The position numbers and the translations under genes were made by a program. Under the pieces are notes generated by a model. That model was not told where the DNA came from. It saw only the letters and a list, made by a program, of their open reading frames with translations, and did no database searches. A stretch of DNA of 64,000 nucleotides, from contig NZ_DF820426.1 of NCBI RefSeq assembly GCF_000617845.2, positions 496,001-560,000 on the forward strand. Reading direction: 5' to 3'. The stretch's first letter is position 1. Every line of letters starts with the position of its first letter. Source of the stretch: Bradyrhizobium sp. DOA9 (GTDB lineage Bacteria; Pseudomonadota; Alphaproteobacteria; Rhizobiales; Xanthobacteraceae). Below are positions 14,816 through 32,009 of this stretch, piece after piece.

Positions 14816-17350
14816 CTAGCGGACTGGAATTGCAATTGGCGGGGCGATCCGTGCCCGAGCTTGGTTATAGACCTCAACCACGCCCGGCATGGCGACGCTG
14901 ACGGCCATGCCGAACGGAACCTGCTCGTCTATCTTGCTGCCTCGGTCAGGCTCACGCTGGATGATGAGCTCGATTTCGGAATCCTCCGTCAAAGCTGGCG
15001 CCTTGTCTCCCACCCAGCGGCGGGAGAAAACAGTTCCCTTGCTCGCCTGGTTGAGATCGGGCTGCGTCTTCGACGGTTGGACGCGAAACTCGTCGATCTC
15101 GTCTGAACCCGCTAACAGCGAGAGCTTCACTGAGCGATACGATTGCCGGCCAGGATGCACAGGTGTGAACCACGCCAGCGTCGCAGTGATCGAGTGCGGG
15201 AGAGATTGGCCACTCATGCAAGCCGGCAACGGAACGGCAATGGAGCGTCTCGTTTCCTGCGCGAGCGTTCCGACCGCCCAGAACGTCGCTCTGTCCGAAG
15301 CGCAATAGATCGCATCTTCTGGACTGACGACGCCGTAGCCCAGAAAGCGGCGGATATTGTCCTTCTGGCGGACGAATTGCCTCGGATCAGCTGGACCTAG
15401 CACGCTCTTGATGAGCTCGGCACTGTCTTCGGGCCACGAGGCCGTATGCACCAAGAGCGCTTTGAGCAGGGCAGCGCGCTGGTGATGGGGCAGCGACAGA
15501 AAGTCCTGCCCGTACGTGATTTCCAACGCATCGTGAATTCTATGAGCCGTTCTGGAGGCCAGAGCTGCTGCGGCGCTCGTGCCGGACGTGTAATGCTCCC
15601 AATTGCTGCCGCCCTCGCGCGGAGGAGCGGCAACCTTGAGCCCATGTGGTCGAGCCGGTCCACTTGGCCTCACAGCAAGTGCCGTTCCACTTGCGACCAT
15701 CATCAAATGCTCCCGAGAGCCAGGCATCAAGATATCGGGTTTGACACCGTTCGCAAATCCTGGACCCAATCCGCTTGATGGGTTGGTGATGATCATCGGG
15801 TGATAGGGATCGACCCTGCCTCTGGCACTGCGTCGATCGGCTGCACTAACCGCGTCGATATTGGCAGAGCCCACCGTAATTCCATTCACTGTTTCGGATG
15901 GTGAAAGGAGCCGACGAGACGTAATCAGTCGCGACAGCGCCGAGAGCGTATGTCGGGCGCGATCGGGCTGGTCCGTTGCTTCATATGCAGCCATCGTCGA
16001 GACAGACGATATCTCGAAGGGGCTGGGGTGGTTGCCGGCACTTACACAGAACAGAATTCCGTATTGATGCGCCAATCTGTCGAGCAACCTGGCCCAGGGC
16101 GAAAGCCGCCCATGGAACGGCTTCCGCAGGTTGCCGAGCGACAGATTGACAATGACGACTGACGGCGCCGTGGGATCGTCGTTACGCCGCATCGAGACCA
16201 CCGCCTGATAGACCAGATCGACGATCAGCCGGTCATTGGGAAATTGATCGGCCGCCCCCAATAGCGGTATGCAATGGATCCGGCGCGCCAACGGAGGCTC
16301 GTTCGTGTTCCGATCGCCATGCACAATCAAAGAGGCCATAGCCGTGCCATGGGCCCGCTCGGCGACCACCGCGGCGCTCTCCAGATCAAATTGATCGTCG
16401 ACATTCATGCGATCACGAAGCAGCGGATGCTGGGAAACAGGCACGCCATCCAGCAAGGCTAAAATCGGTTGGTCTGCAGAAGGAAGCGGACCCTGGCCAC
16501 CTTGGAGCCGAGTAGCGTCATCCACTTGCACCGGCGCAATGATACTCTGTGGCCGGATGTGCATGACAGGATCCATGCCGCTCAGTCCGCCCACGGAGCG
16601 CTCCGTAATTCCGCGGAGAGCAGCAACGGGCAGGTTCGCCAGCAGCGCATGATAAGCGATACCGGGGATGCGGCATTGCGAGACGAGAGTGCCGCCGACC
16701 GCTCTAATCTCATTGACAACTGCTTGTTCGTTCGACGCCGCCATGTCCTCCGATGATCGAAATACAAGCTCGACCTCAATAGGAAGAATCTCGTCATCTC
16801 CCATGAATTCGATCTCGTGCACAAGGATCTCTCGGTCGCCCTCTTGAACGCGATCCGCAGGTCCCCACACCCTGATATCACGGAGCGTTGCAAAGACATC
16901 TCGCCAGGGCGCGAACCCCTCGCCAATTGCTTGCCCGGAGATCCACCTCGTCCAGAGTGATAGGATGTTCCGCAAAGCCGTGACATCTGGCACAAGAAGA
17001 TAGGCCTCAGGCGACTTGTCTTTCTCGTCGGCCTCGAGCTCCTCTTCATCTATGAGCTCCAGACCCGGAACTCTTCGGATCGCGTTTGCAAAGTTAGCAA
17101 CTGCTCCCCGAACCTCGAAGACCAGCAGCCGCTCCGGCGCGAGCGAGGAGGGGTCTGCACGCAAAGTCAGTCCTGCAGGGTCTCGACCTAGAACTTGTTC
17201 GAGGCGCCTGAAGCGAGGACCGAACGCTGCATTCTGTGCAGCAGGAGTGAATTTAGCTGGTCTGGGGACCGGCTGCGGTCTGCCTTTTGGCCTTGCCGAC
17301 TGATTGCCCGGCATTAGCCGCAGCAGGGGCTTGGTTGGATCGGCCGCCAT
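14816..17350 (-). CDS. ietS: IetS-like subtilisin-family serine protease
   Basis: An 844-residue cytoplasmic S8 protease with no signal peptide. The catalytic residues are readable: Asp about 301 (LALLDGVPVS), His about 334 (ERAHGTAMASLI), oxyanion Asn about 440 (CVSAGNH) and Ser about 592 (TSGTSAAAA). A roughly 290-residue N-terminal region of unknown fold precedes the protease domain. The start overlaps the AAA ATPase gene by 98 bases, so the pair is translationally coupled. This subtilase/AAA pairing is the IetAS arrangement, first described as a toxin-antitoxin-like stabiliser on Agrobacterium Ti plasmids and later reported as an antiphage system. Assignment rests on architecture and gene order. 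Confidence 0.82.
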   Translation of the reverse strand: MAADPTKPLLRLMPGNQSARPKGRPQPVPRPAKFTPAAQNAAFGPRFRRLEQVLGRDPAGLTLRADPSSLAPERLLVFEVRGAVANFANAIRRVPGLELIDEEELEADEKDKSPEAYLLVPDVTALRNILSLWTRWISGQAIGEGFAPWRDVFATLRDIRVWGPADRVQEGDREILVHEIEFMGDDEILPIEVELVFRSSEDMAASNEQAVVNEIRAVGGTLVSQCRIPGIAYHALLANLPVAALRGITERSVGGLSGMDPVMHIRPQSIIAPVQVDDATRLQGGQGPLPSADQPILALLDGVPVSQHPLLRDRMNVDDQFDLESAAVVAERAHGTAMASLIVHGDRNTNEPPLARRIHCIPLLGAADQFPNDRLIVDLVYQAVVSMRRNDDPTAPSVVIVNLSLGNLRKPFHGRLSPWARLLDRLAHQYGILFCVSAGNHPSPFEISSVSTMAAYEATDQPDRARHTLSALSRLITSRRLLSPSETVNGITVGSANIDAVSAADRRSARGRVDPYHPMIITNPSSGLGPGFANGVKPDILMPGSREHLMMVASGTALAVRPSGPARPHGLKVAAPPREGGSNWEHYTSGTSAAAALASRTAHRIHDALEITYGQDFLSLPHHQRAALLKALLVHTASWPEDSAELIKSVLGPADPRQFVRQKDNIRRFLGYGVVSPEDAIYCASDRATFWAVGTLAQETRRSIAVPLPACMSGQSLPHSITATLAWFTPVHPGRQSYRSVKLSLLAGSDEIDEFRVQPSKTQPDLNQASKGTVFSRRWVGDKAPALTEDSEIELIIQREPDRGSKIDEQVPFGMAVSVAMPGVVEVYNQARARIAPPIAIPVR

Positions 17351-18329
17351 GGAGGTTCTCTGGCTTTACTCTCGATGACCAAAATTCGAGTTCTGTCCGG
17401 ATTGCAGAATCAATCGAGATGTCACCAAGGCCAAGAATTTGCCGGCGTCGCACGTTTTGGCAAAAATCAAGCACTTCAGCATAGGAGGTTGCATCGATTG
17501 TCTGTGCGAGGTCGAAGGCGGACAGCGAGGGGCGCTCTGGCCAGCCGGTATAAATACGCTCTATGAAATGTGCAATTTGCGCAATTCGCGGAGCAGGAAA
17601 TGCAATCTTCAGCTGGAAACGTCTCCACACAGCGCGATCAAGCAGTTCGGCATGATTGGTAGCAGCAATCGTGACAACGTAACTCGGAAGTTTATCGATT
17701 TGCATCAAGAGGAATGAAACGACGCGCTTGATTTCACCCGTTTCGTGATCATCCCCACGCTCTTTTCCGATCGCATCGAACTCGTCGAAGAATAATACGC
17801 AAGGCTGGGTTCGCGCATAGTCGAACAGCGCGCGAAGACGCGCGTTTGTTTCGCCTAGATAGCTTCCTACGAGCGCATCGTACCGCACCACGAAAAACGG
17901 CAGAGAGAGGCCCTCCGCAATGGCTTCTGCAAAGGAAGTTTTGCCGTTGCCTGGGGGGCCAGACAGGAGAACCCGATGCCGCGGCTCATATCCACTTGCC
18001 CGAAGCACGTCTGCCCGCACATGCTCCTCGATCAGCTGCATCCCTTCCGCGCGCGCAGGCAAGGGTAGAACCAGCTCGTCGAGTGATATGCGTGGCGCAA
18101 CCTCTAAGATCGTGTCGCGTCCGGCAGCTTGCGGAGAACGCTGAGAGGCAACCAGACTCGGCGGCGTCACAGCAATCGTCTGCAGCGCTCGTTCCAGCCG
18201 ATCGGCAAGAGCGTGATGGCTCTTAGCGCGTTCATCGGCAACCATGGCTTCCACCGCCGAGCGCATCATCGGCTTATCGCCGGCAACGCCGGCGCGCACG
18301 AGAGATATAAGTAAGTCGCTCTTGGCCAT
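17253..18329 (-). CDS. ietA: IetA-like AAA+ ATPase
   Basis: A 358-residue AAA+ ATPase. Walker A is GPPGNGKT (about residues 124-131), Walker B is CVLFFDEFDAIGKER (from about 177), sensor 1 is TIAATNHAELLD, and arginine-finger residues follow in AVWRRFQ. An N-terminal helical part (MAKSDLLISLVRAGVAGDK) may bind substrate or the protease. I start it at the ATG at 18329; the frame is open to 18446 but the extra residues look non-coding. It lies directly upstream of and overlaps the subtilase gene. In IetAS the ATPase is thought to control the protease. Confidence 0.83.
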   Translation of the reverse strand: MAKSDLLISLVRAGVAGDKPMMRSAVEAMVADERAKSHHALADRLERALQTIAVTPPSLVASQRSPQAAGRDTILEVAPRISLDELVLPLPARAEGMQLIEEHVRADVLRASGYEPRHRVLLSGPPGNGKTSFAEAIAEGLSLPFFVVRYDALVGSYLGETNARLRALFDYARTQPCVLFFDEFDAIGKERGDDHETGEIKRVVSFLLMQIDKLPSYVVTIAATNHAELLDRAVWRRFQLKIAFPAPRIAQIAHFIERIYTGWPERPSLSAFDLAQTIDATSYAEVLDFCQNVRRRQILGLGDISIDSAIRTELEFWSSRVKPENLHGGRSNQAPAAANAGQSVGKAKRQTAAGPQTS

Positions 18330-18843
18330 GACGGACAGCCTATTACAGGATTGCGGGCCCAGACTGCTAGAAATGGCGCCAACTTGTGAACAACTGGCCG
18401 GGGACCAGTGTTCCATGCCGAGCCGTTCACCATGCCTATCTGGCATGAATTAACATATTGAAAAGCTGCGACAAACCTAAGGGAGGAGGCAACTGGTGAC
18501 CGGGCAAGGCCGTTTCCGCACGCCCCTCAGCCTGCTTGCCTATCGACCAAATTGCCTTGTCGGCGCCGCACGCGTCATAAGAAGCACTAAGGTTCAACTG
18601 ATCACCCGACGGTAGAACGTCGCAGCGGTCGAACGGCCCAATCGGCGCTCAATGCGGTCAGCGGCGTCGTTCGACTGTTCCCTATTTGTTTCCATTTGTC
18701 AAGTCGCAGCCCTAGCCGGGCTCATTGGCAAAATGACGATCTCCGAGCGCGGCCGCCCCCCAAAGCGGTCAAAAGCACCGCCTCACAAGAGGAAGCGACG
18801 ACCATAAATCGCCAAGATCGCCATCCAGCTGCGATCGGAAATG
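18330..18843. other. Intergenic stretch between ietA and the HNH gene
   Basis: About 0.5 kb. A 33-codon minus-strand frame beginning METNREQ (near 18690) and a TTGACA hexamer just upstream of it may mark the ietAS promoter region, but no good -10 was found. No recognised gene. Confidence 0.4.
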
Positions 18844-19668
18844 TCAGCTCTGCAGCCAAGCTAACGTCGCAGCCTCATTCGGCACAATCGCTCGGAAAAG
18901 CGCCGGCCGCCAGCCATTCGCTGGTTCACCGAATGAAGAGGTGCTGATCTTCTGCTTTAGAGTTCGCGCAACGACAACGTTTGGTTTCCCCGCGATCGAG
19001 GCCTTGAATGATGCCAAATAGCTTTGAGCTCTGCGAGAATATCTGGCATTGAGGCCAAGCCGGCTGAAATGTCGGCGCACGAGCTCACCTTCCTCTTGAG
19101 GCAGCCCGCTGCCATCATCGATATAGTAACTGACACTCACTCCTTGTTTTTTGAATGACAGGCTTGCTTCCAGGACGGGCGCATTGTTCGACGGTTCGAC
19201 GCTCGGGTGAAGAAACAATCGTTGTCCAGTCGTCTTGGACTTTACCGCATTCGCCTTCTTGCGATTGCAGGGCGTACAGATCGGCACGAGGTTACGTGAG
19301 TGAAGCGAAAATTCAGGAAAACGAGCTTTCGGCAGGAAGTGATCCAGATCAGGATTGGTGTCGAGCGAGCAATACGGGCAGAGATCCAGGTCGGCAGCCG
19401 GCAGCGTATCTATCATTTTGGCGAGTAGCCGCTTTATGGCCGCGCTTCGTTTGTCGTAAGCCTCGATCAAAGCCGTCCGTTCGCTTGCCGTCGTCGCGAT
19501 GGCTCCTAGCTGGTGAACATCCGGGCAGACTGCCTCGTACTTAACACAGGCCGCGCCGACCTCCTTCTGCATCGACTTTAGCGCGGCTCTGCGCGAGGGG
19601 GCGCTCACAGCTGCGAGGTCTGCGAACGAGGGAACCGCAGCGTCGTCGTAAGCTCCGATGCATCTCAC
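18844..19668 (-). CDS. ptuB: PtuB-like HNH endonuclease (Septu-type)
   Basis: A 274-residue protein with an HNH nuclease core: CPYC zinc pair, then LDHFLPKARFPEFSLHSRNL and VPICTPCNRKK, giving the conserved Asp-His, Asn and second Cys pair. The flanking regions are helical. It overlaps the end of the upstream ATPase gene by 4 bases. An SMC/ABC-type ATPase followed by an HNH nuclease is the Septu (PtuA-PtuB) arrangement, in which the complex degrades invader DNA. This gene looks intact, but its ATPase partner is broken, so the system is probably inactive here. Confidence 0.78.
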   Translation of the reverse strand: MRCIGAYDDAAVPSFADLAAVSAPSRRAALKSMQKEVGAACVKYEAVCPDVHQLGAIATTASERTALIEAYDKRSAAIKRLLAKMIDTLPAADLDLCPYCSLDTNPDLDHFLPKARFPEFSLHSRNLVPICTPCNRKKANAVKSKTTGQRLFLHPSVEPSNNAPVLEASLSFKKQGVSVSYYIDDGSGLPQEEGELVRRHFSRLGLNARYSRRAQSYLASFKASIAGKPNVVVARTLKQKISTSSFGEPANGWRPALFRAIVPNEAATLAWLQS

Positions 19669-20987
19669 GGTTCGCCTGCCCCGTCGTCAAGTCCGCCCTC
19701 AAGGGCGTAAAGATAAGATTGAGCCGGCACGCCAAGTGGAAATGGGAATAGCGCCTCTACCGCCTCGGCGCTGCCGTGCCTCTCGTAGAGCTCGCTCAGC
19801 ACGTGAGTAAAATCGCGCTCAGGATCTGCAAGGCCGAGAACGCGACGCGACAACTCGCCGAGGTCTTCTCCGAAACTCTCGAAGGTCAACGCTTTGATTT
19901 CCGGCGTATCGGTGTTGTCGCGCCCGAATACCCGTACAGAACGGCTGGGGATTTGCTGCAGCAAAATAGGCGAGTGCGTCGCGATCACCGCATAGGAATC
20001 GAACTCGCGCAGCGTCTCGTTGAGAGCTGCGATGACGCTCGTAAGCAGGCCGGGATGCAGGTTTGTCTCGGGCTCATCAATCAAAAGAAGCGATCCTTCC
20101 TCGATAAAGCCGACAATATTGCTGAAGATTGCCGCCACCAGACGCTGACCAGCGCTCAGCTGGCGCACCGCCGCGCTGCGGATTGCATCGTCGTCCGTCG
20201 TCAACGCCTCTGCGCGCGCGGGATCCAATAGCGTCGAAAGAATACGCTGCAGGACATCCGTTCTTTCGCTTTGTACCACGGGCTCGAGAGCCTCGCTCAA
20301 CATGCGATCGATTTCGTCGGCATTGATTGTGCCTTGCGGCGTACGAAGGCCGCAGTACTTGTAAGAAGCGCGAGAGCGATAGGCAACGCCAAGAAGACGG
20401 GGCGCACGGGCAGGCTCCCTCGGTAGCGGAAACTCGTCGAACGCATTGTACGAGATCGTGATCACTCTGCTGATGTCAGGCTGAGGCAAAATGTCCGATT
20501 GAGGCATACGCTGCCGTGTCTCTTCACTAAAGACTTGCGGAGGCATAACAGTAGCAGCCAAACTCGACAGCAAACGTGTCTTGCCCGTGCCGTTGCGCCC
20601 GATCAGCAGTCCTGTTTGGCAGCCCTTCGTGGCTAGAAAAGTCAACGTCCAAAATGTGGGGTCCGGAAGCGCCATCGAGTAACATTTCAAATCGAAAGAC
20701 GGGCGCTACGACTTCTTCGCAAGGAGCTCCGACATAGACACCGCCCCGCTTCAGTGCGTGGCGCGATGAAGCTTCCCGCAAGAACGACTTATTCCACAGG
20801 CTCTCGTTTGAGACGTATTCGCGTCGCTTCGGCCTAAAAACAACGTCTCCAATAGCTTTCAAATACGAGGCCTGCAGGCGTCGAGGAAGATTTCCGACCT
20901 TTCGATAATAGGCGATCGATTCCCCCAGAGACGCTCTCCGAAGCGGTAGAGCGTCAAGGACGACCGGAATGACCTTGCCCCCAAATT

Positions 20988-21940
20988 TTATCCAGTTTTG
21001 AGTTCGCCCCGGTCGTTGGATTTGCCCGGTTGGGCGGTGGGAGCGACGGGAGCTGGCGCGGAGCCTTCGGCATAGCGCAGCGCCAGATCCCGGCGCGGGT
21101 GGCAGGTGAAGGCGAACTCGGACGGCGTCTTCCATCCGAGCCGCGAGTGTGGTCGTGCGTCGTTGTAATCGGCGCGCCAGCATCCGAGCGCGACGCGGGT
21201 TTGGGCCAGCGACGTGAATAGCGTCTCGTTCAGCAATTCATCGCGCAGCCGGCCGTTGAAGCTCTCGATGAAGGCATTCTGCATGGGCTTGCCCGGCGCG
21301 ATGTAGTGCCAGTCGACACGGCTCTGGTCGGCCCAGCTGAGGATGGCGTTACTGGTGAACTCGCTGCCGTTGTCGCTGACCACCATCTTCGGCTTGCCGC
21401 GCTCCATCACCAGCCGGTCCAGCTCCCGCGCCACGCGGGTGCCGGAGAGCGAGGTGTCGGCCACCAGCGCCAGGCATTCGCGGGTGCAATCATCGACGAC
21501 GGTAAGGATGCGGAAGCGGCGGCCATCGGTGAGCTGATCCGACACGAAGTCGAGCGACCAGCGGTCGTTCGGCGCCATCGCCACCGTCATCGGCGCCCGG
21601 GTCCCGATCGCCCGCTTGCGGCCGCCACGGCGACGCACCGCAAGCCTCTCTTCCCGGTAGAGCCGGAACAGCTTCTTGTGGTTGATCACGTAGCCCTCCC
21701 GCTTGAGCAGAACGTGCAGGCGCCGATAGCCGAAGCGACGGCGCTCCTGGGCGATCGCCCTCATGCGCCGGCGAAGGCCGGCTTCGTCCGCCCGAGTTGT
21801 CTGGTATCTCATGGTCATGCGGCAGCAGCCGATGGCTTTACACGCCCGCCGTTCGCTCATCCCGTGGGCATCCACGAGATGCGCGACAGCTTTCCGCTTG
21901 GCCGCGGACGTCACCACTTCTTTCCCAAGAGGTCCTTCAA
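20988..21940 (-). CDS. IS3-family transposase OrfB
   Basis: The catalytic subunit, normally made as an OrfAB fusion by -1 ribosomal slippage at the orfA end. It has the HTH_21 region ([20 protein letters not shown]) and an rve-type DDE core: [10 protein letters not shown] with the first Asp, [11 protein letters not shown] with the second, and [17 protein letters not shown] with the Glu. The frame is open upstream to 22058, but family alignment suggests translation enters near 21940 from orfA. The C-terminal proline-rich tail runs into the terminal repeat. Confidence 0.9.
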
Positions 21941-22177
21941 GGCCGCGTTGTCCAGCATGGCGTCGGCCAGCAGCCGTTTCAGCCGCGTGTTCTCGTCCTC
22001 CAGCGTCTTCAGCCGCTTGGCCTCCGAGACCTCCATCCCACCGAACTTGGCTTTCCATTTGTAGATGCTGGCGTCGCTAACGCCATGCTTGCGGCACAGA
22101 TCGGCGACCGATACGCCGGCCTCATGCTCCTTCAAAATCCCGATGATCTGTTCTTCCGAAAATCGGCTGCGCTTCAT
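21911..22177 (-). CDS. IS3-family transposase OrfA
   Basis: An 88-residue DNA-binding protein: a helix-turn-helix of Tnp_1 type ([38 protein letters not shown]) followed by a leucine-zipper-like helix ([20 protein letters not shown]). I chose the ATG at 22177, where the family consensus [10 protein letters not shown] begins; the frame is open to 22213. It overlaps orfB. Confidence 0.9.
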
Positions 22178-22564
22178 GCTCTGGTCCTTGTCGTAGGCCA
22201 GAGCGAACTTCAAACTGGATTAAGCCCGTGGGGCAAGGTCAGGAAGGTTCCTGGCTCGAAATTGGTCGCCGTTGACAGCCAGCCTAATGGCGCCGAGATC
22301 AATCAGTTGGTCGGAAGATCGATGCAACTTTACCAGGAAGCGGCACTTCCATCCGAAATCATCCCAATTATCCTGATAAAGGCTGACATACGGATACGTC
22401 AGTTTTTTGAGTTCAGGCACGCTCCGCGACTGATAAATTAAAAATTGCATTCCAAACTCACAGGTCCGCGGGCAGTTGCACCCGAACAGTTTGGCGCGTT
22501 AGGAGCATAACACTCGTGTTCGTCGCGGATATTCTCGAAAGTTCGGGAGGACACGATTGAGGTG

Positions 22565-23008
22565 CTAACCAATTCTCTCGAGGTCGGCGAGGCACTTGTC
22601 GAGGTTGCTTTTAGCGTCCTGGAGGAACTTTCTGGTTTCGGCAAGCCGTCTGAAATCGGGCTTGACCGGCCCCTCGCTCACGGTGCTGAGCTGGTGGCAG
22701 ACAGTTGCAAGATCGCTCGAGACGTCTTCGAGCACGAAAGCAAGGTTCTCCAGCGGCAGGAGCTCGGAGAAGAACGTCTTTGATGCAGTTTCGTCCTGGC
22801 CTGAAGGTGCTTCAAACTTGACTTCGACCAGCGGCACCAGGATTTCGCGATCATCGCGCGCAGCTCGACCCATGCTCATGATGAGCGAGCTGAACGTCGT
22901 CGAAACGTAGGTCAGCCGGTCGAGCAGGGCGTTTCCATACACGACGACCGAATCCGACCTGCCTTGCGGCTCCTCGGTCTTCAAAGAATCGAGATCATCA
23001 TTCGACAT
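22565..23008 (-). CDS. Small helical protein of the unrecognised three-gene module
   Basis: A 147-residue soluble protein with no family I recognise. It has an acidic N-terminus, a middle helix (LLDRLTYVSTTFSSLIMSMG) and a C-terminal region that looks like a helical bundle (RRLAETRKFLQDAKSNLDKC). It starts inside the end of the winged-helix gene (11-base overlap), so the two are translationally coupled and probably work together. A 114-base gap separates it from the start of ptuA on the same strand. Confidence 0.72.
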   Translation of the reverse strand: MSNDDLDSLKTEEPQGRSDSVVVYGNALLDRLTYVSTTFSSLIMSMGRAARDDREILVPLVEVKFEAPSGQDETASKTFFSELLPLENLAFVLEDVSSDLATVCHQLSTVSEGPVKPDFRRLAETRKFLQDAKSNLDKCLADLERIG

Positions 23009-23972
23009 GTTCGGGGTCCTCTCCTGCGGCCAGGTGCAACATGCCTGCAGGGAACGAGGCAGGCTTCGGACTGCTCACCGCCCCAATTGACGTGGAGGCG
23101 CCGTGACCTTCGTCTTTCTTCACCTGCACGATCGTCACCGACGAGCCATGATAGGAGCTCTTGGTCCTTGCCTTCATATATCCCGGTGCCGTCGGTCCAG
23201 GCGAATGGAGCTGAAGCAGATAGTCCTCCATCACCTGACGCACGCCAAGCGGATCACGCACAAGTAGCCCGGCCGCGTGCGACGTAACGTGGGTCGAGCT
23301 CGGCAACGGCACATCAAAGAGGGTGCGAAGGACCACATGCTCTTCAGCTGTGAGCGCAGGGCGGGTCTTAAGACGCAGTTTTTTGTCCATAAGCTTGGCC
23401 AATCGGTCGGCGCTACCTGCACCGGGCCGTTCGTGCTTCTCAAGAGCGATGAGGCCATCGCGCGTGAGCGCAAAATGAGCGAACTTCCCTGACGTCGTTC
23501 GTTCGACAAAACGCGCATTCGTCATCAGGCGGAGGATACGGCTGAGATTGGCGTCCTTCAGATCCAATTTCTTGGCAATAGCCGCCTTCTCCAGCTGACG
23601 CGATGGTGCATCCCGCAAGAGCTGCAGAATCTCAACGACGTGCTGACGGTGCATGACCTCGCTTGGCCGAGCCACCTTGGCTGTGTTGATCGACATTTGC
23701 AGGAGATCATAAAACGCCCTGAAGCGCTCGGCATAAGCGGCATTCTTCGGCGCGAGCGAGGCGCTCACCCGACGCAGAATATCGAACCATTCCCGCAGCT
23801 CCGCGTCACGGCGCCGGCTCTCAAGAGAGTTCCAGAGCCAGGCCCCGAGCGTTGCATAGATGCGCTCCAGGCTCCTTTCGGATCCCTCCTTGAGGAACTC
23901 CGAAATGACGCCCCGCGCCTCGGTCGCGGTGGCCTCGCCGCTCTCTATCTTTTCCAATGTAACGTCCGACAT
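22998..23972 (-). CDS. Winged-helix protein of the unrecognised three-gene module
   Basis: A 324-residue protein. The first 110 residues are helical; a winged helix-turn-helix resembling the MarR type follows (AIAKKLDLKDANLSRILRLM, then a wing FVERTTSGKFAHFALTRDGL). The C-terminal third has no known match and a low-complexity end. ATG at 23972 has TAGGA before it. It lies 75 bases behind the nitrilase-fold gene and overlaps the 147-residue gene. It could be the autoregulator for the palindrome at 25480 or a DNA sensor; neither is shown. Confidence 0.72.
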   Translation of the reverse strand: MSDVTLEKIESGEATATEARGVISEFLKEGSERSLERIYATLGAWLWNSLESRRRDAELREWFDILRRVSASLAPKNAAYAERFRAFYDLLQMSINTAKVARPSEVMHRQHVVEILQLLRDAPSRQLEKAAIAKKLDLKDANLSRILRLMTNARFVERTTSGKFAHFALTRDGLIALEKHERPGAGSADRLAKLMDKKLRLKTRPALTAEEHVVLRTLFDVPLPSSTHVTSHAAGLLVRDPLGVRQVMEDYLLQLHSPGPTAPGYMKARTKSSYHGSSVTIVQVKKDEGHGASTSIGAVSSPKPASFPAGMLHLAAGEDPEHVE

Positions 23973-24047
23973 GGCCAAGTCCTACCGCACAACCCTTAAG
24001 ATCATTTTACAACGCTTTACTCTGATTTTAGTCCCGGAATCTAGGTG

Positions 24048-25475
24048 TCAATGGCCCCATTTGTAGGCAGTCCAAACGGTTTTTTGGCCGAGTTCCCGGG
24101 TCGAAACACCGTTCGGCTCCTTGAGTAGTGGTAATACAGTACCTAGTCTGGCGTCGGCATATCGGTTGTGAGTGGGGTGCTGCACGACAAAACTTCGCGT
24201 GCCGAACTTCACTTCTACTTGGCTTGCAGTGGTCTGGTGGCCCTGCATGGTCCGGTCGTTCCCCATTGACGGGACCAGCATCACGTCAACATCCAGATCG
24301 CTGAAAGGCGTGGAGCAGACGTCACAAAAATCGAGGCAGATAGCGACCCCAATCAGTGCCCCTTCGGTCGCAAGGACGCAGATCCGCTCGCCGGCGACGA
24401 TGTTTTCGATACCCCAATCGTCATCGGCATACGGGGCGATCTTGTCGTAGACGAGCAGCTCCCCACCATAACCGTCATAAATACGCGCCCGATTGACCGT
24501 GCCTTTGCCTGCCGTCTCGTGCCCCGTTCCCGGAAGGACGATCTCAGGAGGCTCGAGCGGGTCGGCCACGTCTCGCTCGCGGATCAGTTTGACGATCCTA
24601 TCGCGCAGCTCTGGCGAGACCGTAAGCTCCGGCCAGACGATTGCGATGCAGTTCTCCTGAAAGGCGCCAGCCATCTGGACAGAGACTGCGTCCTCGGCCG
24701 ACGCGGCATCTGCACCACGGACCGTAAAGCGCTTGTCCCCGTCTGCCGTGGCGAACTCCGCCTCGAGCTTGACCGCCTCGAAAAGACAGGCGCCCATCTT
24801 CCACTTCGCTGGGTCTTGGGCTGCACTGTGCAAGGTACGGCTATCGACCACCTCGACGGGATAGTTGTCAATGAAGGTCGGCAAGATCCGATGAAACAGC
24901 ATGCCACGTTTTGTATATGCCTGGCTCCGCCGGGCGGGGCGGCCGGCACTCGCGCCAAGGCGTGGAATGAACCAGCAGCCGAGCTCCTCCAGGCACCATT
25001 CCTTTGGTGAGATCGGCCATTGCGATCGGCGTTCGAGCAGCACGCGATCTATCGCGCGGATCACTCCGCCAAGCAACAGGGCAACCTGCTCGGGGTTCTC
25101 TTCGGAGAGAGACCACAGGATGCGCCCTTCACCAATGCTGTTACCGAAATTCCTCGCTGATTCTTCCAGACGTCGCTCCGAAAGATTGCGGTAGCTCTTG
25201 TGCACGCTTGGCGGCGCACTGCGAAACAGTGCATCGAGCCCGATCAAGGCCTTCGTGAGCTCGTCCCGCCCAGCATGCGTCATCGAAGCCTGGGATTGAG
25301 CAAGCTCACCAGCTGCCGTCTTCCACTTGCCGAAATCCGGTGTTTCGACGCGGCTCTCCACACGCCCAGCCAAAAGACTCGTCCAAATAATTTTGCCAAT
25401 ATGCGTTATTGATAGCGAGCGGTTCGGTATTTGCAACCAGCCAGCTGAGTTTCGGCCTCTCATCATTCGCCACAT
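24048..25475 (-). CDS. Nitrilase-superfamily protein with N-terminal helical domain
   Basis: About 475 residues from the ATG at 25475. The C-terminal 200 residues have carbon-nitrogen hydrolase motifs: Glu in IAIVWPELTV (about residue 283), Lys in LLVYDKIAPY (about 345) and Cys in GVAICLDFCD (about 380), so the catalytic triad looks complete. The N-terminal 250 residues are an unassigned, mostly helical region. Nitrilase-fold enzymes hydrolyse or form C-N bonds; the substrate is unknown. Location beside IetAS and Septu genes suggests a defence role, and nitrilase domains are known as partners of some defence reverse transcriptases. The start is uncertain (ATGs at 25475, 25466 and 25463; frame open to 25700). 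Confidence 0.72.
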   Translation of the reverse strand: MWRMMRGRNSAGWLQIPNRSLSITHIGKIIWTSLLAGRVESRVETPDFGKWKTAAGELAQSQASMTHAGRDELTKALIGLDALFRSAPPSVHKSYRNLSERRLEESARNFGNSIGEGRILWSLSEENPEQVALLLGGVIRAIDRVLLERRSQWPISPKEWCLEELGCWFIPRLGASAGRPARRSQAYTKRGMLFHRILPTFIDNYPVEVVDSRTLHSAAQDPAKWKMGACLFEAVKLEAEFATADGDKRFTVRGADAASAEDAVSVQMAGAFQENCIAIVWPELTVSPELRDRIVKLIRERDVADPLEPPEIVLPGTGHETAGKGTVNRARIYDGYGGELLVYDKIAPYADDDWGIENIVAGERICVLATEGALIGVAICLDFCDVCSTPFSDLDVDVMLVPSMGNDRTMQGHQTTASQVEVKFGTRSFVVQHPTHNRYADARLGTVLPLLKEPNGVSTRELGQKTVWTAYKWGH

Positions 25476-25479
25476 GTGC

Positions 25480-25500
25480 AGCTGACGCTGAGCGTCAGCT
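25480..25500. promoter_or_regulatory. Perfect palindrome, candidate operator
   Basis: AGCTGACGCT, one G, then AGCGTCAGCT: a perfect 10-bp inverted repeat with a 1-base centre, 5 bases upstream of the ATG at 25475. Its position suits an operator controlling the nitrilase-fold operon, perhaps read by the winged-helix protein of the same operon. Confidence 0.55.
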
Positions 25501-27866: not shown

Positions 27867-27894
27867 GTATGATCATTTTTGATAGGGATCATAC
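27867..27894. promoter_or_regulatory. NikR-type operator
   Basis: GTATGA, 16 bases, TCATAC exactly matches the half-site sequence and spacing of the Escherichia coli NikR operator; the inner bases extend the arms to 8 bp (GTATGATC and GATCATAC). It covers the predicted start site of the sigma-54 promoter, so nickel-loaded NikR could block it. No nikR gene is in the window. Confidence 0.8.
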
Positions 27895-27911
27895 CGCGGG
27901 GCTTGGGGTGG

Positions 27912-28991
27912 ATGCCGCAATTGACGAAATTCTCATTCCGGACGGCTGATCCCGGCCCAGCTCTGCTGTTCGGCGGACTTGTGTTGGTCAACATCGCCGT
28001 CTGGGCGTGGACCTTGGCGACGTTCGCCGACCGGCCCGCGGTGATGGCGAGCGCGCTTCTCGCTTGGGTGTTTGGCCTGCGCCACGCCGTCGATGCCGAC
28101 CACATCGCGGCGATCGACAACGTCGTGCGCAAGCTGATGCAGGCGGGCGATGCGCCGCACAGCGCGGGCCTGTATTTCGCCCTCGGCCATTCCACCATCG
28201 TCCTGGTCGCGACCGCGCTGCTCGCGGTCGGCGTCGTCAGCCTCGGCGGCTACAGCCTGCTGAAGGAGATCGGCTCTCTGATCGGCACCTCGGTGTCGGC
28301 GCTGTTCCTGCTGGTCGTCGCGACGATCAATCTCACCATCTTCGCTGGTCTGTGGCGGACCCTTCGCGCCATGCGCGAGCACGGCGTCCACGACGCCGCT
28401 CAGCTCGGTGCGTTGCTCGCAGGCCGAGGGCCCCTGACGCGCCTGCTCGGGCCGATGTTCCGCCTCGTCACGAAGCCCTGGCACATGTATCCGCTCGGCT
28501 TCCTGTTCGGGCTCGGCTTCGACACCGCGACCGAGATCGGGTTGCTCGGCATCTCCGCGACCGAGACGGCGCGCGGTGTGTCCTTCGCGCATGTGCTGGT
28601 GTTCCCTGGGCTGTTCGCCGCCGGCATGGCGCTGGTCGACACTGCCGATTCCACGTTGATGGCGAGCGCCTATCGCTGGGCCTTCGTCGATCCCACGCGC
28701 AAGCTCTGGTACAACCTCACGATCACCGGCGCCTCCGTCGCGGTCGCGCTGTTGATCGGCGGCATCGAGGCGCTGGGGCTCGTCGGCGACCGGCTTGGCC
28801 TGTCCAGCGGGCTGTGGGCGACGGTCGATGGCCTCAACGATTCACTCGTTAATGTCGGCTCCGCCGTGGTCGCGCTGTTCGCGCTCGCTTGGCTGGTCTC
28901 GATCGTCCTCTATCGCCGCACCTTCGTCGATGGCGCGCGCCCCCCGTTGACCGAACCGATGGAGTGCGCCGATGGCACTGAAGCGGCATGA
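27912..28991 (+). CDS. hupN: HupN, NiCoT-family nickel permease
   Basis: A 359-residue inner-membrane nickel permease. It has the NiCoT signature RHAVDADHIAAIDNV in helix 2, plus LGHSTIV, LGFDTATEIGLL and GMALVDTADSTLM, and about eight membrane helices. It supplies Ni2+ for the hydrogenase active site. I use the ATG at 27912 (MPQLTKFSFRTA), preceded by GGGG; a TTG at 27879 lies inside the NikR-type site. The end overlaps the TonB-dependent receptor gene by 20 bases, so both are expected in one transcript. Confidence 0.93.
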   Translation: MPQLTKFSFRTADPGPALLFGGLVLVNIAVWAWTLATFADRPAVMASALLAWVFGLRHAVDADHIAAIDNVVRKLMQAGDAPHSAGLYFALGHSTIVLVATALLAVGVVSLGGYSLLKEIGSLIGTSVSALFLLVVATINLTIFAGLWRTLRAMREHGVHDAAQLGALLAGRGPLTRLLGPMFRLVTKPWHMYPLGFLFGLGFDTATEIGLLGISATETARGVSFAHVLVFPGLFAAGMALVDTADSTLMASAYRWAFVDPTRKLWYNLTITGASVAVALLIGGIEALGLVGDRLGLSSGLWATVDGLNDSLVNVGSAVVALFALAWLVSIVLYRRTFVDGARPPLTEPMECADGTEAA

Positions 28992-31290
28992 CCGGCCCGG
29001 GCACCGATGCGGAGCGCTGCCCGTTCTGGTGGCCGGCATGTCCCTCGGCAACTATGGCATCGCCAGCGCTCAGGCAGATGACCTCGTCCATGAACTGCCT
29101 CCAGTCCAGGTCGAGGGCGGCGGGAGGCCTCAGGGCAAAACGCCTCCGGCGTCGCGCCGGGCCGCAAAACCCGTCGCGGCCGACAATCGTATCCTCGTCT
29201 ATCCCGCCGCATCGCCCGAACCGGCGTCGTCCGGCGTCGCCACCGGCGTCAAGGGTCCGCAGAACATGGCGAGCGCGCTCACCGTCTCGGGCGACCAGCT
29301 CAATGCGCGACCGTTCACGCGTCCGGGCGAAGCGCTCGAAGCCGTGCCGGGCCTGATCGTCACTCAGCATTCCGGCGAGGGCAAAGCCAACCAGTATTTC
29401 CTGCGCGGCTACAATCTCGACCACGGCACCGACCTCGCCATCTACGTCGACGACGTCCCCGTCAACATGCGCACCCACGCGCACGGCCAGGGCTATGCCG
29501 ATCTCAACTGGCTGATCCCGGAAACCATCGGCGCGATGGATGTGCGCAAGGGCCCGTACTTCGCCGACGAAGGCGACTTCGCCTCCGTCGGCAGCGTCCG
29601 TATCGGCCTGATCGACCGCGTCGAGAAAGGCCTCGCGCAGGTGACCGTCGGCAGCTTCGGCTATCGCCGCCTGCTCGGCATGGACTCTGCCAAAGTCGGC
29701 GACGGCGCGCTGCTCGTCGCCGGCGAGCTCGGCACCTATAACGGTCCCTGGACCAATCCGGACGACGTGCGCAAGCTCAACGCGCTCGTGCGCTACAGCC
29801 AGGGCACCGCGACGGACGGCGTGTCGATCACCAGCATGGCCTATGCCAACAGATGGAATTCGACCGACCAGGTGCCGCAGCGCGCGATCACGTCGGGCCT
29901 GCTCGACCGGTTCGGCTCTGAGGATCCGACCGACGGCGGCAACACCAACCGCTTTGCGCTCTCGGGCCGGATCGCGCAGAGCGACGACCTCGGCTCCTGG
30001 AAAGCCAATGCCTATGTCGTGAAGAGCCAGCTCGATCTCTTCAACAATTTCACCTACTACCTCAGCGACCCCGTGCTCGGCGACCAGTTCCACCAGCACG
30101 ACGATCGCCTGATGGCGGGCGCCAATATCTCGCGCACGCTGAACGGCTTGTTCGCAGGCTTGCCGATGCAGACCACCTTCGGTCTGCAATCGCGCTATGA
30201 CGCGGTCGATCTGGCGCTGACCAACACCTTCCAGCGCAGCATCCTGTCGAACGTCCGCAGCGACAAGGTCGCAGAGGGCAGCGTCGGCATTTATGCCGAG
30301 AACACCGTGCGCTGGACCGACTGGCTCAGGACCACGGTCGGCTGGCGCGGCGACTATTATGCCGCCGACGTCACCTCGCTGTTCAATCCCAGCAATTCCG
30401 GCCGCGTCGATGCCGCGCTCGGCAGTCCGAAATTCCGGATGGTGCTCGGCCCCTTCAACCAGACCGAATTGTTCCTCGGCGCGGGCTACGGCATGCATTC
30501 GAACGATGCGCGCGGCGCGACAACGATAGAGGACCCTAGCGATCCCGCGACAAAGCTCTCGCCGTCGCCGCTGCTGGTGCGCACGCGCGGCGCCGAGGTC
30601 GGCGTTCGCAGCAGGATCGTTCCCGGCCTCGATACCTCGCTCAGTCTCTTCATTCTCGACCAGGATTCCGAGATCCTGTTTTCGGGCGATGCCGGCGATA
30701 CCGAGGCGACCCGCGCCAGCCGCCGCTACGGATTCGAGTGGACCAACCATTACCGGCCGCGGCCCTGGATCGACATCGACGCCGATCTCGCCATGACGCG
30801 TGCGCGCTTCCGCGGCTATGACGGCGATCAAGCGGCGGTCTACGCCTCGATAGCCGGCTTTCCCGAGACGCAAATCGGCAACGCGCTGGGCAATTACATC
30901 CCGAACGCGCCGGCGATGATCGCATCGGCCGGCATCACGCTCGGCGAGAGGACGGGATGGTTCGGCAGCGCCCGCTGGCGCTACATCGGCTCCAGTCCGT
31001 TGACGGAGGACAACGCGTTTCGTTCGCAGCCGACCAGCATCGTCAACGCGCGGCTCGGCTACCGCGCGGAGAACGGTTGGCGTCTTCAGTTCGACGTGCT
31101 CAACCTGTTCAACGCCAGGGCGAACCAGATCGCCTACGCCTATGGTTCGCTGCTGAAGACCGACACGCTCTACAACCTCTGTGCCGCGAAGGCCGCGCCC
31201 GCGGCAGTCTGCGCCAACGGCGTCATGGATTATGTGCTGCACCCGATGGAGCCGCTGGCCATCCGGGTCACGATGGCAGGCAGCTTCTAG
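28972..31290 (+). CDS. TonB-dependent outer-membrane receptor (putative nickel receptor)
   Basis: A 772-residue outer-membrane receptor. A signal peptide (ending near ASAQA) is followed by a plug domain (ALEAVPGLIVTQHSGEG, YFLRGYNLDHGTDLAIYVDDVPVN) and a 22-strand-type barrel ending in the outer-membrane Phe (AIRVTMAGSF). A TonB box may lie near LPPVQVEG. The gene starts within the last 20 bases of hupN and shares its promoter, which suggests it brings nickel or a nickel complex across the outer membrane. That substrate is an inference from context. Confidence 0.88.
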   Translation: MALKRHDRPGHRCGALPVLVAGMSLGNYGIASAQADDLVHELPPVQVEGGGRPQGKTPPASRRAAKPVAADNRILVYPAASPEPASSGVATGVKGPQNMASALTVSGDQLNARPFTRPGEALEAVPGLIVTQHSGEGKANQYFLRGYNLDHGTDLAIYVDDVPVNMRTHAHGQGYADLNWLIPETIGAMDVRKGPYFADEGDFASVGSVRIGLIDRVEKGLAQVTVGSFGYRRLLGMDSAKVGDGALLVAGELGTYNGPWTNPDDVRKLNALVRYSQGTATDGVSITSMAYANRWNSTDQVPQRAITSGLLDRFGSEDPTDGGNTNRFALSGRIAQSDDLGSWKANAYVVKSQLDLFNNFTYYLSDPVLGDQFHQHDDRLMAGANISRTLNGLFAGLPMQTTFGLQSRYDAVDLALTNTFQRSILSNVRSDKVAEGSVGIYAENTVRWTDWLRTTVGWRGDYYAADVTSLFNPSNSGRVDAALGSPKFRMVLGPFNQTELFLGAGYGMHSNDARGATTIEDPSDPATKLSPSPLLVRTRGAEVGVRSRIVPGLDTSLSLFILDQDSEILFSGDAGDTEATRASRRYGFEWTNHYRPRPWIDIDADLAMTRARFRGYDGDQAAVYASIAGFPETQIGNALGNYIPNAPAMIASAGITLGERTGWFGSARWRYIGSSPLTEDNAFRSQPTSIVNARLGYRAENGWRLQFDVLNLFNARANQIAYAYGSLLKTDTLYNLCAAKAAPAAVCANGVMDYVLHPMEPLAIRVTMAGSF

Positions 31291-32009
31291 TCCGGTCGTG
31301 AATCGCGAAAGGTACGTTCGCCGGTGATGATCGCGGACAGCATGCTCTGGCGCGACATGATGTCTTCGCGGAGTGCGGCATAGATGTGCAGGATCACGAA
31401 TGTCACGATGAACCACATGCCCAAATGATGTAACGTGTGGACGTCCTGACTGTTTGGGAAGATCGAGAACACCCACCCGAACAGGCGATACCACAGGCTG
31501 CCGATGCCGGCGCCCTCCGCATAGAGCGCGAACCCGGTCATGATCATCGCGATCATCGCCATGACGAACAGGAACATCGCGGTATTGGCGAGAGGATTAT
31601 GGCCGACATATTTCTTCGGGTAGCGCACCAGGAAGAGATACCAGCGCAGCTCGTACAAAAGGCCCCAGCGCCAGATCCGGTTGTAGAACGGCAGCGCGAA
31701 GAGTTGCCGCGCATAGGTATTGCCGACGAAGGCCCAGTAGATGCGGTAGAGGAAAGCTGCGGCCAGCGTCTGCCCGGATGCGAAATGGATGAAGCGGATA
31801 TAGCCCATCGTGTACCAGTTCGAGGCCTCGCCCGGCATCGACGGCAGCGGCGAGGCGATCAGATAGCCGGTGATCACGAGAAGGGCGATCAGTGCGGCAT
31901 TCAGCCAATGCCAGATACGCACCGGCGCTTCGTACACATAGATCGATTGGCGATTGGTTCCGGCGGCACCGACGGCATCGAGCGTGCCCGGTATTTCCAT
32001 CTCTGTCAT
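31287..32009 (-). CDS. Second Ni/Fe-hydrogenase b-type cytochrome (HupC paralogue)
   Basis: A 240-residue membrane cytochrome b, closely similar to the HupC at 41550: IYVYEAPVRIWHWLNA, YIRFIHFASGQ, YVGHNPLANTAMF, GWVFSIFPNSQDVHTLHHLGMW and IYAALREDIMSRQSM, holding the histidines that ligate two haems. Four membrane helices. It is transcribed towards the receptor gene, with stop codons overlapping by 4 bases, and no hydrogenase subunit genes are beside it. AGGAGC precedes the ATG at 32009. It may pass electrons to quinone as HupC does, or be a duplicate. Confidence 0.9.
   Translation of the reverse strand: MTEMEIPGTLDAVGAAGTNRQSIYVYEAPVRIWHWLNAALIALLVITGYLIASPLPSMPGEASNWYTMGYIRFIHFASGQTLAAAFLYRIYWAFVGNTYARQLFALPFYNRIWRWGLLYELRWYLFLVRYPKKYVGHNPLANTAMFLFVMAMIAMIMTGFALYAEGAGIGSLWYRLFGWVFSIFPNSQDVHTLHHLGMWFIVTFVILHIYAALREDIMSRQSMLSAIITGERTFRDSRPD

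Follow-up and report, generated by a model that had tools for sequence, protein, structure and literature searches.

A candidate antiviral module built around a nitrilase-superfamily protein and a winged-helix partner in Bradyrhizobium sp. DOA9

What do three closely packed genes of the root-nodule bacterium Bradyrhizobium sp. DOA9, encoding a nitrilase-like protein, a winged-helix protein and a 147-residue protein, do in the defence gene neighborhood in which they lie? The genes belong to the 64,000-nucleotide stretch analysed here (the window; contig NZ_DF820426.1, positions 496,001 to 560,000), which forms part of the genome's second contig (G000:C2:496001-560000). Our answer is that they are probably the sub-type A version of a mobile conflict system, most likely an anti-phage one, in which the nitrilase, a putative amidohydrolase, would serve as effector, the winged-helix protein as adaptor, and the third protein as an exchangeable sensor. 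The sequences make the module a strong candidate for a new antiviral system. We put at about even the chances of the broader reading, that a stand-alone nitrilase and a winged-helix adaptor form the core of an undescribed anti-phage family whose sensors were exchanged in evolution: a small helical protein, a long winged-helix form (with weak PAS and histidine kinase matches), a KGGVGR-TPR protein, or a KGGVGR-Mrr-NACHT-pentapeptide-WD40 protein.

A first-pass annotation of the window had described three same-strand genes separated by a 75-base gap and then an 11-base overlap, and the open reading frame (ORF) coordinates bear this out. All three are on the minus strand: the nitrilase-superfamily protein with its helical N-terminal region at 24048-25475, the winged-helix protein at 22998-23978, and the small protein, a third gene found only in sub-type A, at 22565-23008. 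The start of the nitrilase gene is uncertain. It may be ATG 25475 or TTG 25373, the latter matching the annotated start in the relative NZ_CP022220 and kept in the window; a longer GTG-started frame extends to 25700, and the annotated start of the relative CP092842 has no start codon at the matching window position. The winged-helix frame opens with TTG 23978, and relatives use an in-frame ATG that falls here at 23972, the likely start and the one that gives the 75-base gap. Among named sequences, the nearest relatives of the nitrilase come from Bradyrhizobium plasmids, with a best identity of 90.7%. Since the gene order is seen again in unrelated genomes despite low identity, the arrangement appears to be more than chance.

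By its sequence, the first gene belongs to the nitrilase superfamily and carries an intact E-K-E-C tetrad. The Glu-Lys-Cys triad read in the first pass is present as E283, K345 and C380 (numbered in the 475-residue frame), together with a second conserved Glu, E357, which we take to complete the nitrilase tetrad. All four residues are retained in 42 of 43 distinct family ORFs, the window protein included, so that the triad is not lost among homologues; the exception, locus L016 of Azospirillum, is a shorter ORF that stands amid metabolic genes and has no winged-helix gene. Such catalytic tetrads are named for nitrilases in the available part of PMC13275509. The catalytic region spans approximately residues 246-440 (24156-24740, minus strand), as read from alignments. 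When the family profile was aligned by hhalign to eight CN_hydrolases of the same genome, the match scored 98.1% (E 1.4e-13), compared with 0.2% for a reversed control, and the distant relative L094 exceeds the Pfam CN_hydrolase cut-off (27.4 versus 23.2 bits). A Foldseek search of the PDB with a low-confidence model returned 307 matches, of which the best 50 were all nitrilase-superfamily proteins by title (best E 0.021). A profile built from nine relatives also picks up apparent ordinary CN_hydrolases in many genomes. The large helical domain earlier read as fused to the nitrilase fits the predicted secondary structure, as seen in a poor AlphaFold2 model (mean predicted local distance difference test [pLDDT] score, 48).

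The second protein is predicted to be a winged-helix protein, as first proposed. Residues 1-183, which comprise a helical domain and then a winged helix (residues about 111-183; 23430-23648, minus strand), are modelled at about pLDDT 80, and the PDB matches listed for the model are mostly MarR- and ArsR-type regulators, one of them with E <0.001; the tail has no confident structure prediction. The 147-residue protein, for which the first pass could name no family, has no match in PADLOC, NCBIfam or PHROGs and a chance-level match in Pfam (E 0.2). It is present in one copy in the genome.

The nitrilase and winged-helix genes are inherited together across distant bacteria. In a sample of 265 Bradyrhizobium genomes, the nitrilase profile (threshold E <= 1e-15) identified 36 places, spread over 34 genomes, and 31 were identified by the winged-helix profile; adjoining pieces at G765:C76 and at G997 were each counted as one place. 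At each of the 30 near-complete nitrilase places, the winged-helix gene follows downstream on the same strand at a distance of 80-207 bases, measured between profile ends. The homologues are thus not mostly alone or in metabolic surroundings, L016 being the exception. A single winged-helix place of the 31 is without a nitrilase, and it is a partial match. Outside Bradyrhizobium, the pair is adjacent on plasmids of Methylobacterium, Sphingobium and Rhizorhabdus. It is also adjacent in 13 of 14 distant and viral loci, namely, one viral contig and 12 of the 13 loci that belong to a different class within the phylum; at the remaining locus, L089, the contig stops 417 bases beyond the nitrilase. 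In that distant class, 13 of 48 genomes have the nitrilase, with an internal stop in two. Pairwise distances among nitrilases and among winged-helix proteins rise together (r 0.86 over 40 loci, which omit L016, L089, L096 [truncated] and second copies of places), none of 2000 permutations being as high (highest, 0.27); the 11 loci of the distant class taken alone give 0.81, the other 29 give 0.91, and host relatedness also feeds these correlations.

The distribution of the module is patchy. A search of 397 genomes of the order gave one strong match, the window's own genome. This search lists 69 genomes, and its other matches, at <=30 bits, resemble ordinary CN_hydrolases and were not counted; a second wide search lists 79 of 398 genomes, and matches at <=40 bits were likewise not counted. 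Both wide searches scored few candidates per genome, so misses are possible. Nitrilase matches were found in 15 plasmid records and on one viral contig, which two further searches returned again, and contigs of chromosome size carry several copies (G401, G890, G957, G978, and G851). There was no match when phage records were searched with the nitrilase, viral contigs with the sub-type C profile, or plasmids with the L094 winged-helix protein.

Around this fixed pair, the third part is exchangeable, and we named the sub-types accordingly: A has the small helical protein, B a long winged-helix extension, and C a KGGVGR ATPase. The first description of a three-gene module is thus only partly right: the first two genes are co-conserved, but the third is kept in a single sub-type, with other parts in its place elsewhere. 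Twenty of the 36 Bradyrhizobium places were examined for their third part. In 10 of these loci the winged-helix protein is short (237-335 residues) and the small gene accompanies it; in the other 10 it is long (532-587 residues) and there is no small gene. The long form and the small gene occur together in 0 of 20. In the Methylobacterium and Rhizorhabdus loci, the small gene can still be recognised, at 28%. Among 12 long-form proteins, two have weak HisKA matches and one has a PAS match.

In the distant class, 12 of 13 loci show a third gene, which starts with an FxSFKGGVGR motif; the motif is invariant in the 10 sequences aligned. All three third-part proteins scanned passed the NCBIfam cut-off for KGGVGR-variant ATPases, and the KGGVGR proteins also match the PADLOC candidate PDC-M28B. 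Of 10 sub-type C third parts, 8 have TPR repeat matches and two match both NACHT and an Mrr-type nuclease domain (Mrr_cat). These two (L090:11025-14312 and L091:2113-7434) are single proteins that combine a KGGVGR-type ATPase, an Mrr-type nuclease, NACHT and pentapeptide repeats, with WD40 in addition in L091; the Mrr-type domain of L091 also weakly matches a family described as inactive. On the viral contig (L084), the product of the third gene is 891 residues long and weakly matches KaiC/AAA. In the nitrilase tree, the KGGVGR loci are separate and the long-form loci fall in one starred clade; the remaining branches are long and unsure. Mutually exclusive third parts beside a fixed pair suggest that the same effector and adaptor have been wired to different sensors.

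The module is associated with known defence genes above background. We chose ten large neighbours by eye, one per locus, and five of these match PADLOC at E <= 1e-40: GajA (1e-228, adjoined by a GajB match at 1e-99), LmuB (3e-134), PDC-S37 (0), Old (2e-55), and a phospholipase effector (2e-97), which is presumably of the CBASS type. Four of the remaining neighbours have weaker PADLOC matches and one has none. By comparison, 0 of 127 control ORFs match at 1e-40; these ORFs, of at least 200 residues, were taken by a mechanical rule from 10 arbitrary 19-kilobase (kb) stretches of four of the same genomes and were not matched for islands. This result and the pairing at 30 of 30 places support the first-pass proposal of a nitrilase module among defence genes as a candidate undescribed system. 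On the viral contig, the three module genes are oriented opposite to the flanking genes, one of which matches phage baseplate or tail proteins in 77 records and another, in 15 records, partly tail proteins.

These contexts bear on the two strongest rival explanations. The first is a maintenance module resembling a toxin-antitoxin pair, with the nitrilase as toxin and the winged-helix protein as antitoxin and autorepressor, selected for keeping a plasmid or island and not for phage defence. The tight operon, the winged-helix second gene, the 15 plasmid records and the decayed copies would all fit it. Toxin-antitoxin pairs are usually small, however, and here the core proteins are large (in most loci about 430-490 residues for the nitrilase and 230-335 for the winged-helix protein), the KGGVGR, NACHT and TPR third parts are larger still, and several copies are on chromosome-sized contigs. 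The NACHT-type third parts of relatives, the defence neighbours and the phage carriage count against this explanation as they do against the second, and we consider a maintenance module unlikely, though it comes first among the alternatives.

The second, which we place just after it as another unlikely explanation, is a regulated metabolic or detoxification operon in which the nitrilase would act on a plant or soil nitrile or amide and the winged-helix protein would be a ligand-responsive repressor. An enzyme next to a MarR/ArsR-like winged helix is a common operon plan, and the first two genes follow it. The genome's 13 Pfam CN_hydrolase matches, however, are all on the other contig, and the window nitrilase used as a genome query finds itself alone. 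The NACHT, Mrr_cat and TPR or WD40 third parts of relatives, the defence genes as neighbours, and the copy in a phage tail-gene cluster also count against such an operon. We noticed no recurring pathway gene by eye in the ORF lists, a point on which no systematic test was made.

Several observations weigh against the defence interpretation. Ordinary regulated operons share the plan of an enzyme next to a winged-helix protein, and Bradyrhizobium has metabolic nitrilases, according to the available part of PMC4070871 (that of PMC9716671 likewise concerns metabolic nitrilases). The window nitrilase-like protein has no Pfam match, its best PADLOC match (a CARF-nitrilase, E 0.006) is not confident, a PADLOC scan of the L094 and L084 nitrilases gave no match, and the structural model is poor. 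Six of the 36 Bradyrhizobium nitrilase places are degraded remnants without the winged-helix gene, and the frame is broken in a few of the 30 paired places (for example, G981 and G765). In Sphingobium, the third gene bears little resemblance to the small protein (18%), and the neighbour comparison was not blind. Finally, no domain can be recognised in the 147-residue protein, and a search of the window's genome for a KGGVGR protein above the cut-off found none, so the sensor slot in sub-type A is an analogy.

We nevertheless favour a defence system, with the following mechanism. In the resting cell, the winged-helix protein would bind the nitrilase and keep it inactive, and perhaps repress the operon too. 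The third part, here the 147-residue protein, would respond to infection and release or assemble the nitrilase. The freed nitrilase would then hydrolyse an essential metabolite with a C-N bond or make a toxic product, and the cell would stop before phage production. By analogy with DRT1, we commit to the nitrilase as a putative gated effector; we infer the direction of control, the sensing by the third part, the substrate, and the protection against phage.

How does such a module compare with known systems? In the available part of the 2026 DRT1 paper (PMC13275509), the nitrilase domain of DRT1 is called an effector, infection is abortive, the substrate is left open, and nitrilases are said to be uncommon in antiphage defence. 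The module resembles DRT1 and other reverse transcriptase (RT)-nitrilase systems (UG1/UG5) in having a tetrad-bearing nitrilase in a putative defence protein, as far as the available parts of the sources go (PMC13275509, PMC9122126, PMC8934634, and PMC11206119). It differs from them in its helical N-terminal region, its winged-helix partner, and its exchangeable third part. Membership in DRT1 was rejected, as neither the window nitrilase nor its operon partners have a reverse transcriptase match in Pfam or PADLOC. The likeness to the CARF-nitrilase model (PADLOC PDLC01989) is a weak match confined to the Lys-Cys stretch, and membership there was rejected as well, with no CARF match in the window nitrilase protein in Pfam or PADLOC.

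The sub-type C third parts, with their KGGVGR ATPase and TPR or NACHT/Mrr-type/pentapeptide/WD40 regions, resemble NACHT/STAND and other NTPase-driven conflict systems; the three window proteins have no match to NACHT or another STAND NTPase. The word nitrilase occurs 0 times in the available part of a 2020 survey of NTPase-driven conflict systems (PMC7159879). In the open-licence literature we found no description of such a nitrilase/winged-helix module, and the defence papers followed up concern RT-nitrilase systems.

If the defence reading is true, nitrilase chemistry is an immune effector outside reverse transcriptase systems. With a compact nitrilase system that lacks a reverse transcriptase, the question of the enzyme could be split from that of DNA synthesis, and small proteins would be at hand for finding the target of a defence nitrilase. 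The swapping of third parts, which extends to NACHT-type ATPases while enzyme and adaptor stay fixed, would also amount to a natural experiment in how a single effector is connected to different sensors.

Does the module act with the defence genes beside it in the window? The first-pass annotation placed it directly upstream of a Septu-like pair and suggested that the genes might work together. The pair is present on the minus strand at 18844-20997, as a PDC-M01A ATPase (PADLOC E 4.7e-74; an extra piece lies at 22193-22450) and a PDC-M01B HNH protein (E 3.3e-45), but transposase ORFs separate it from the module (20988-22213, minus strand; they match rve/rve_3, and "IS3-type" is our label). The ATPase gene (18844-22450) is interrupted by this IS3-type element and in several pieces, as the CP092842.1 Septu-like ATPase finds its window counterpart in three tblastn pieces flanking the transposase. 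Plasmid CP092842.1 has the same gene series beside the module and no transposase between. Farther on, and also on the minus strand, are IetA (17253-18446; PADLOC E 2.4e-164) and an IetS-like S8 peptidase (14816-17350). Of the IetAS-like pair reported nearby, IetA is thus secure, but the peptidase partner is assigned through similarity to an annotated relative.

We surveyed the neighbours at 52 loci, at least eight of which are second copies of a place, in stretches of up to about 10 kb on each side. PDC-M01A/B homologues stand beside the module only in the window and at L009, and IetA only in the window and at L009, L010, and L006/L145, the last two being one place. A larger system comprising the three genes and the Septu-like or IetAS pair could be read from their adjoining positions in the window and the same order in CP092842. 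The survey refutes it as a general rule, however, and the ATPase gene is in pieces in the window; we consider a larger system very improbable, and the suggested joint action with the Septu-like pair is not supported. The Septu-like pair, split by the IS3-type element and beside the module at one other locus only, was rejected as a partner. Septu (PtuAB)/PDC-M01 shares a neighbourhood with the module in these two places, while the module proteins are unrelated to it and are not co-conserved with the pair.

A divergent four-gene operon lies beside many sub-type A modules (L145:10476-14779 and relatives). It encodes a lipoprotein-like protein, a metalloprotease and an alpha/beta hydrolase, by annotation, and a trypsin-like protease. 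Sub-type A might include this operon as a protease cascade that triggers the nitrilase: at 14 nitrilase places with the winged-helix gene, its first gene lies at a distance of 268-399 bases, and the trypsin-like protein matches models of the retron XI protease and Lamassu LmuA. Yet the operon is also 278-283 bases from three nitrilase remnants and 2.8 kb from a fourth, it occurs at places without a nitrilase, and it is not beside a sub-type B place (sub-type C was not searched). It is absent from the window's genome. An obligate role for the operon is not supported, and we give a protease cascade a slim chance. The sub-type B loci L132, L133, L137 and L146 have in common a protein about 1088-1106 residues long, together with two companions. 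In L132 and L137 these are joined by an AAA protein and by a protein that by eye looks radical-SAM-like; the AAA protein of L132 matches the PDC-M37B and DolB models.

A scan of the locus for promoters and terminators found no signal exceeding shuffles. Just upstream of the nitrilase ATG is a perfect palindrome with 10-base arms (25480-25500), unique in the window. We dropped it as an operator, as no inverted repeat with arms of at least 7 bases was found upstream of 12 relatives. Beside the defence stretch, at 27879-32009, are ORFs that by eye resemble a nickel/cobalt transporter, a TonB receptor, and a hydrogenase-type b cytochrome.

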